A DNA stretch of 20,977 nt from positions 1 through 20,977 of the IMG/VR virus record IMGVR_UViG_3300032086_002109. The stretch is one strand, 5' to 3'. Origin of the DNA: a virus. Below, piece by piece: positions 1-3,428 of the stretch (position 1 is its first letter; every line of letters starts with the position of its first letter). The notes below the pieces were generated by a model. It searched no databases, had not been told where the DNA came from, and saw only the letters and a list, made by a program, of their open reading frames with translations. The position numbers were made by a program, and so were the translations under genes.

Positions 1-37
1 GCTATCTTTGGAGGTATCTGTATAAAACCCCCCTATT

Positions 38-67
38 TGCACTATCGACATGACTGTCGATGTTGCA
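38..67 (+). other. Compound stem-loop
   Basis: ATCGACA (44-50) and TGTCGAT (55-61) form a perfect 7-bp stem around the loop TGAC. Outside it, TGCA (38-41) can pair with TGCA (64-67), and a C-run at 28-33 faces GGGG at 68-71, so the whole 28-71 segment can fold into one long interrupted stem. There is no T-tract straight after it, so it is not a canonical intrinsic terminator. Confidence 0.6.
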
Positions 68-88
68 GGGGTGATCTTAAAACCCTGT

Positions 89-169
89 CAAATCGCTGTT
101 GCGATTTGTCTTTTTGTCGTTGTTGCTGTCGCAACATTTTACAATGTAAAAACAATTGTTATTGTTTTT
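89..169 (+). repeat. Three hairpins at 30-nt pitch with TGTY loops
   Basis: Three perfect hairpins follow each other. CAAATCGC-TGTT-GCGATTTG lies at 89-108, TGTTGC-TGTC-GCAACA at 121-136 and AAAAACAAT-TGTT-ATTGTTTTT at 148-169. The loops start at 97, 127 and 157, exactly 30 nt apart. Stem sequences are unrelated, while loop and spacing are kept. A fourth small dyad, TTTTACA-A-TGTAAAA (137-151), lies between the last two. T-rich stretches follow the first two stems, so terminator function is possible. A repeated protein- or RNA-binding element is the other reading. Confidence 0.7.
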
Positions 170-172
170 GTT

Positions 173-284
173 AATTTATTATCGCTTCGCTTCAGCTTCG
201 TCACTAGTTTTAGTTATCAATCATTATCGTTTTCGTTGTATGTTGTGACTACGCTTCGCGTACTAGTAACAGCGATAATAAATT
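173..284. repeat. 14-bp inverted repeat with nested dyads
   Basis: AATTTATTATCGCT (173-186) is the exact reverse complement of 271-284, with an 84-nt interior. Inside, GTCAC (200-204) can pair with GTGAC (245-249), ACTAGT occurs at 203-208 and 262-267, and TACGC-TTC-GCGTA (250-262) is a compact hairpin. GCTTC is iterated at 184-198 and again near 253. The arrangement could extrude as a branched cruciform or fold as a multi-branched RNA. Its function is unknown; origin-like or terminus-like roles are possible. Confidence 0.65.
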
Positions 285-302
285 GTTGTTTATTAAATAC
301 TT

Positions 303-348
303 GGTAGTCGGTATACTTTGGGCTAAATCCATTGATATACTGATTACC
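303..348 (+). other. 13-bp G.U-containing stem-loop
   Basis: The segment 303-315 pairs with 336-348 in 13 consecutive pairs, two of them G.U (307:344 and 310:341), leaving a 20-nt loop. Wobble pairs fit an RNA structure better than a DNA palindrome. It lies 115 nt before the start codon at 463 and is probably part of that gene's 5' leader. It is not a tRNA: there is no T-loop signature and no cloverleaf. Confidence 0.55.
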
Positions 349-372
349 GATTATGATTTATACCATTGATAT

Positions 373-450
373 TATAGGTCAATATGATTGTCCTATATTA
401 GAGATGGACGTAAATAAGTGCAATAATCAACAGACATTCATGGAGATGTC
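373..450 (+). promoter_or_regulatory. Leader hairpins before the 463 gene
   Basis: Two further hairpins precede the first gene. TATAGG-T-CAAT (373-383) pairs with ATTG-T-CCTATA (387-397), with one T-T mismatch and an ATG loop. GACAT (433-437) pairs with ATGTC (446-450), and that stem directly abuts the Shine-Dalgarno-like AGAAAGG (451-457). The second hairpin could affect ribosome access. No clear promoter was found. Confidence 0.45.
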
Positions 451-462
451 AGAAAGGATAAT

Positions 463-585
463 ATGTTAAGTACTATTGTATTAAGTCTACTAGCTTTATT
501 GTTAGTCTTAATAATAACTGGGTATATCGCAGGTGGTATATTTAGTTATAAAATGTGGAAATCAATTATTTCCGAGGATAAGTAA
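463..585 (+). CDS. Small single-pass membrane protein (40 aa)
   Basis: This 40-residue protein is mostly one hydrophobic helix (about residues 4-27, including LLALLLVLIITG) followed by a short basic then acidic tail. ATG at 463 follows AGAAAGG (451-457) with 5-nt spacing, which fixes the start. Its stop overlaps the next start by one base (TAATG), the usual mark of coupled genes. It is an inner-membrane peptide of unknown role. Its position as the first gene after the structured leader suggests expression from the same transcript as the downstream cluster. A host-membrane effector is possible but only inferred. Confidence 0.6.
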   Translation: MLSTIVLSLLALLLVLIITGYIAGGIFSYKMWKSIISEDK

Positions 586-2815: not shown

Positions 2816-3428
2816 AGATAAAACAATAATGAGACCTATTAGAAATGTAGAGTATGATCATTGGAATTATACTATAGATGAAACATATGATGATAGAAAG
2901 TCATCTCTTAAAACAGAAATGATTGATGAGATTGACGATTTGTCAGAAGAAAACTATGGAGCATTTAAAGCTAAATTAAAATTAGATAAAGTTATGGACG
3001 ATATAGCAAAAAAGTATAAAGATTATACTGATTTTGTTAAAAACAAAAGAGCTATAGAAGAACAAAAATCTAATGATTTAACTAGAGCTATTGATCAAAT
3101 GTATGACATTTTACAAAAGTTCAATAAAGAACGTAAATGGAATACAGATGTAGAACATAGTATGTTAAAAGATCCAAAAGATCATGATATTCTTTTAAAG
3201 AAATTATGTAGAGAAGAAACAGAAAAAGCATATTATGCAGGACCAAAAGGTAGAGCATTACAAATGCTTGAAATTTCTAAAAAGAAAGCAAAACATGTTC
3301 TTAACTCTGGTTTACCTTTAGATCTAGCAGTCAAATCAATAAGTATGGAAATGTCTAGTCAAAAGATAAATTTAGATTTACCTGAAAATATGTTTAATCC
3401 TTCAATTGCACTTGAACATAAAAAGTAA
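2808..3428 (+). CDS. Hypothetical helical protein (206 aa)
   Basis: The largest protein of the small-gene cluster. ATG at 2808 is preferred over the in-frame ATG at 2796 because GAGG (2798-2801) then lies 6 nt upstream. The protein is highly charged, with long Lys/Glu/Asp helices (about residues 30-125) likely to form coiled coils, and a less charged C-terminal part with a short apolar stretch (VLNSGLPLDLAVKSISM). No catalytic motif is visible. A scaffold or protein-protein interaction role is a guess. The gene is followed by leader B. Confidence 0.6.
   Translation: MVRDKTIMRPIRNVEYDHWNYTIDETYDDRKSSLKTEMIDEIDDLSEENYGAFKAKLKLDKVMDDIAKKYKDYTDFVKNKRAIEEQKSNDLTRAIDQMYDILQKFNKERKWNTDVEHSMLKDPKDHDILLKKLCREETEKAYYAGPKGRALQMLEISKKKAKHVLNSGLPLDLAVKSISMEMSSQKINLDLPENMFNPSIALEHKK

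Follow-up and report, generated by a model that had tools for sequence, protein, structure and literature searches.

Terminator-like hairpins in a fast-changing structured leader of an uncultivated, pelagiphage-related phage lineage

In lambdoid phages, terminators are located before the early genes and are relieved by N or, in HK022, by put, an RNA with two stems in its ~70 nt that lies close to the start, as outlined in PMC9378689. Conjugation operons of the pLS20 type are described as carrying a related kind of control, conAn, in which an RNA is combined with a protein where an operon containing numerous terminators begins (PMC8955417). Clusters of hairpins are also reported to act jointly as intrinsic terminators (PMC8355165). 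A literature search found no published description of the leader region considered here.

The window analyzed is a complete IMG/VR virus record (IMGVR_UViG_3300032086_002109; 20,977 bases), whose DNA matches consisted of small patches only, in one marine fosmid and in four Pelagibacter phage records, two of these being of a single phage. In L027, a close relative (L numbers denote the loci and contigs compared), the terminase part reaches 49% identity to the best isolates; the lineage is an uncultivated one that is related to pelagiphages and resembles the phages infecting the ocean bacterium SAR11. The start of the window is non-coding, with genes running rightward from 463. As the window begins within this non-coding region, its left neighbor lies outside; in L027 and L138 the left neighbor of the leader is a leftward run of small genes including the terminase large subunit. 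Across 54 distinct sequences, the non-coding region (∼440 nt) between the leftward terminase operon and the rightward small-gene block keeps its architecture while its sequence changes fast, and the order of parts is hairpin A, hairpin B, a zone of hairpin gain and loss, a long stem C and hairpin D (Table 1). An ORF at 50–307 (85 aa) was rejected as a coding explanation, since its L027 counterpart has 57 aa and diverges after the shared start. A tRNA scan found nothing, and Rfam returned 0 matches at gathering score in the window and only sub-threshold ones in 1–480 (best E 0.28). A DNA search of 50,697 phage records gave only two weak Vibrio phage matches (E = 0.04) for the window leader and none for the L088 leader. 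Inside the small-gene block, positions 751–900 have an unusually strong + strand RNA fold (z = −6.4).

Table 1. Positions of the leader elements, the individual hairpins and the first gene in the window.
Feature	Position	Strand	Description
Element A	28..72		fixed 45-nt hairpin, C6TAT ... GGGT, two-tier stem
Element B	89..117	+	hairpin 1 with T-rich tail 109–117, terminator-like
Hairpin 1 (= element B)	89..108	+	8 bp, loop TGTT at 97–100
Hairpin 2	121..136	+	module of variable zone; 6 bp, loop TGTC at 127–130; found in L138 but in no other relative
Overlapping hairpin	137..151		loop AAT; overlaps and excludes hairpin 3; broken in L138
Hairpin 3	148..169	+	module of variable zone; 9 bp, loop TGTT at 157–160; found in L138 but in no other relative
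Element C	173..284		long stem; arms 173–186 and 271–284, 14/14 complementary
Element D	301..350	+	covarying RNA hairpin of rightward transcript
Element E	363..407	+	imperfect hairpin upstream of first gene; arms 363–383 and 387–407, 76% complementary
First small gene of rightward block	463..585	+	40 aa

Relatives were collected using the HTH gene at 1768–2214, which produced 80 loci, 24 of them (L005–L028) at no less than 52% identity, and using motif scans, which produced 26 and 68 contig stretches. The motif was also present in L149, a contig of 88,284 bases and far longer than the others. There were 30 distinct leaders with the end motif (14 exact duplicates were dropped) and 33 places without it; the latter supplied another 24 distinct sequences, each 150 nt or longer, for the total of 54. 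Most leaders were found by the C6TAT motif, and conservation of that motif is therefore partly a matter of sample choice; it occurs in 11 of the 24 close HTH-search loci, which were not selected for it. Nine of the 68 motif-scan contigs (L093, L101, L108, L111, L115, L121, L129, L134 and L147) end at most 303 nt right of the start of GTAYAAAAC, and the window begins 19 nt to the left of this motif. Because these ends are scattered and do not fall at one point, a physical end is less likely than assembly breaks in the variable zone.

An earlier note on this DNA, made from the letters of the window alone, had pointed to three hairpins with TGTY loops at an exact 30-nt pitch and had suggested a selected array. 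All three hairpins are real, with perfect stems at the places given (Table 1), but the list was incomplete, as perfect hairpins also occur at 44–61 (loop TGAC), 137–151 and 276–295; the hairpin at 137–151 is probably incidental. Counting stems of 6 bp or more with a loop of 3–6, window 1–300 contains six perfect hairpins, a number reached by none of 5000 dinucleotide-preserving shuffles (mean 0.33); hairpins with a TGTY loop averaged 0.0018 per shuffle of the same stretch (again 5000 dinucleotide-preserving shuffles). The comparison of RNA 28–300 with shuffles, which had been proposed at the same time, also came out in favor of structure (z = −6.2; 0 of 200 shuffles as stable). The loop centers of hairpins 1–3 are exactly 30 nt apart in the window; however, this pitch is weak evidence because three hairpins packed randomly into 85–174 are equally spaced in 4.3% of trials, and an equally spaced triple among all six hairpins arises in 8.8%. 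Given this chance frequency of 4–9% of placements, and centers 29 and 30 nt apart in L138, the 30-nt pitch was rejected as a signal of selection.

Among 30 complete leaders, hairpin B has a TGTY loop in 16, another loop in 7 (TATC, TATAG, TAAA and, four times, TATTG) and no perfect equivalent in 7. The latter are the L005/L009/L016 group, for which inspection by eye allows an interrupted stem, CAGCTCRC-TGTT-GYTCGCTG. The TGTY loop of B is preferred and not fixed; these loops, together with the TATA of hairpin 2 in L138, argue against TGTY as a strict loop rule, and its recurrence above the shuffle level stands. All three hairpins occur in just one relative, L138, where hairpin 2 is TGTCGC-TATA-GCGACA (the TGTY loop is lost) and hairpin 3 is CAAAACAAT-TGTT-ATTGTTTTG; hairpins 2 and 3 each have one compensatory pair change relative to the window. 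Compensatory changes across relatives are likewise found in the stems of B, C and A. A scan with hairpin 1 returned L138 only, a scan with hairpin 3 returned L138 and three unrelated places (L153–L155) and nothing else, and an exact scan with part of the variable zone of the window gave no match. L027 and L015, the two relatives nearest in DNA sequence, match window 1–120 (or 127) and 280–480 at 87–94% identity and have no match at 121–279; hairpin 1 lies within the conserved part and hairpins 2 and 3 within the replaced part, where both are absent in these relatives and other hairpins occupy the zone. Different modules are found in the zone of other relatives, for example two TGTT hairpins 46 nt apart (L006, L140 and L146) or a module with a classical terminator look, GTCAGC-aga-GCTGAC-TTTTTTT (L120 and L127). 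With only hairpin 1 widely shared, the three hairpins do not hold as a unit. Stems vary while hairpins stay, in agreement with the earlier view that simple repeat expansion is not the explanation; neither stems nor spacing are kept across the lineage, the outcome that the earlier note had named as refuting its selected array, and what is kept is the hairpin-bearing zone. The variable zone repeatedly contains TTC-triloop hairpins, GCTTCGC on the + strand and GCGAAGC on the − strand (window 231–270; L015, L024, L027, L086 and L148); GCGAAGC is an unusually stable DNA mini-hairpin.

To the left of this zone, the size of element A is fixed: in 81 of 93 anchors (places, with duplicates counted), C6TAT opens a stretch of exactly 45 nt that GGGT closes. 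The other 12 anchors comprise 8 with a second CCCCCCTAT copy further upstream, 2 unrelated places (L035 and L121), one at a contig start (L125) and one with a different hairpin (L115). Element A exists in 34 distinct versions, in groups with unrelated inner stems, and has a mean MFE of −19.4 vs −6.9 in mononucleotide shuffles. It folds equally well on either strand, and its G.U pairs (25 on +, 16 on −) do not settle the strand. In L112, L118, L127 and L128 the loop of A is TGTT between arms TATCGAC / GTCGATA, which is another independent use of this loop. The use of G.U pairs leaves the strand of B and C unfixed as well, and windows within 1–300 had better z-scores on the − strand. The arms of element C differ between relatives, yet are complementary; its loop of ~84 nt in the window compares with a compact stem in relatives. 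Since MAFFT did not align B and C in structural columns, the consensus fold recovered D well and C in part, and missed B. In 21 sequences, element D comprised 329 Watson-Crick, 63 G.T, 0 A.C and 4 other cells, with 3 gaps; the 63 G.U cells vs 0 A.C show that D is conserved as an RNA hairpin in the rightward transcript. Element E also appears in the folds of relatives.

Statistically, hairpins between A and C tend to T-rich 3′ tails on the + strand, as in intrinsic terminators, often with more than one in a row. The T-tail score right of A was 2.20 on + vs 0.45 on − over 58 distinct hairpins (6 bp or more) and was higher on + in 51 of them, though these counts, like those of terminator sites below, come from related leaders and are not independent. 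Random places in the same zone scored 1.32 (+) vs 0.65 (−); the zone is T-rich on the + strand, and composition thus accounts for part of the T-tails. A simple rule was applied to 52 leaders, the remaining 2 of the 54 having been dropped for insufficient length. A rightward terminator-like site, i.e. a G+C-containing stem-loop with a T-run following at once on the strand read, was present in 36 of the 52, at least two such sites in 14, and a leftward site in one, vs 0.08 rightward and 0.02 leftward per shuffled sequence. No site was found in 16 leaders, among which are L138 and the L005/L009/L016 group. Of the hairpins in the window, hairpin 1 alone passes the rule; hairpins 2 and 3 fail. Of the roles proposed earlier, a stacked terminator fits the T-tail polarity on the + strand. 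The tests run supported neither an origin nor a ladder in which a single protein binds site after site, and repeated operators for one protein were rejected on the unrelated hairpin stems within the window genome.

The explanation we favor, with about even confidence, is that these are terminator-like hairpins in a structured leader serving attenuation or antitermination of the rightward operon. A rightward transcript would start left of hairpin B, and the polymerase would then meet B and the modules and mostly stop, leaving the operon off or low. Relief would come either from an RNA polymerase made resistant (antitermination) or from an alternative fold that abolishes the terminator; transcription would then continue through a structured 5′ UTR (D and E) to the first gene at 463. 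Selection would act on the presence of such hairpins and not on their sequence, number or pitch, and the modules would turn over for this reason. A purely mutational origin is unlikely. Under it, polymerase template switching within a hypervariable non-coding spacer would have created and perfected A to C and the modules as quasi-palindromes, themselves of little function. This origin agrees with the almost purely Watson-Crick stems of B and the modules and with the module gain and loss by which close relatives differ; however, by itself it would predict neither the T-tail polarity, nor a fixed 45-nt A with unrelated stems, nor the strand-specific G.U pairs of D.

Where the transcript starts bears directly on the attenuation reading. 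A simple promoter scan gave 9 vs 8.8 in shuffles, and no conserved promoter box was found left of B. A TATAAA left of A was rejected as a kept promoter box, as L008, L011 and L026 have other letters there. There is a T/A-rich stretch immediately before D, and the rightward transcript could equally start between C and D, leaving B and C upstream, which would weaken the reading of the region as a terminator leader. Stem-loop, linker and terminator-like hairpin is the order found in many bacterial small RNAs. We regard it as rather unlikely that the order of A, a single-stranded linker and the terminator-like B, which resembles this arrangement, marks a short trans-acting regulatory RNA of ~80–100 nt that starts near A and ends after B, given that a conserved promoter box was not found and that further modules, C, D and E continue in the same direction to the gene at 463. 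It is quite improbable that the palindromes act as double- or single-stranded DNA, e.g. as a replication origin, packaging site or operators: the leader does adjoin the terminase operon, A folds equally on both strands and nine contigs end within 303 nt right of the start of GTAYAAAAC, yet stems that differ within one genome are not repeated operators for one protein, D is a strand-specific RNA, and the contig ends mark no single point.

By eye, the GGGG of element A has two possible partners, CCCCCC upstream and AAAACCC downstream, so that an alternative fold may form. We give very little credence to an undescribed phage RNA switch, in which A would act on RNA polymerase in cis, much as put or EAR does, or via the alternative GGGG pairing and so license passage of B and the modules; free stems would then permit the array to be rebuilt without losing control. 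On the other side of the leader, left of the position of the window's start, the − strand of L027:3227–3268 reads toward the terminase operon with a CCCCC that can pair with an upstream or a downstream GGGGG, followed by TTTAT; judging from these letters, L027 may have a leftward leader with its own alternative-pairing terminator. In L120 a leftward terminator-like site is present at 3197–3183.

If attenuation or antitermination is correct, an uncultivated phage lineage would control a terminase-adjacent gene block by a leader whose hairpins are freely replaced under constant polarity and architecture, and a natural series of terminator arrays would be available for testing. Hairpin A would be an element of fixed size and free sequence. 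The exact pitch in one genome may be incidental while the larger structure is real.

Among known systems, HTVC010P-type pelagiphages such as Skadi-2 also separate a block of small genes from the terminase genes by non-coding DNA; in contrast to the present leader, this region of Skadi-2 (512 nt) has no more structure than its shuffles (z = +1.0), and the DNA searches of phage records found no similarity to the leader in this group. Several close hairpins as one termination unit are shared with the hairpin-cluster terminators, although those are described (PMC8355165) as lying downstream of stop codons, whereas here the hairpins stand before an operon. As in lambdoid phages and HK022, terminator-like hairpins precede a phage operon, here as predicted from sequence. 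A and B together form two stem-loops in ~80 nt (window 28–108), where put, which suppresses termination in cis by contacting RNA polymerase, has two in ~70 nt near its promoter; the leader differs in that A is one 45-nt hairpin and, judging from how put is described, in having no put sequence. With conAn, as far as its account goes, the leader shares terminators joined to control at the start of an operon, with the difference that in conAn the terminators are internal to a long operon and that the protein ConAn1 takes part there. The logic of the leader would be similar to that of lambdoid phages and conAn, a likeness offered by analogy and not as a claim of membership.
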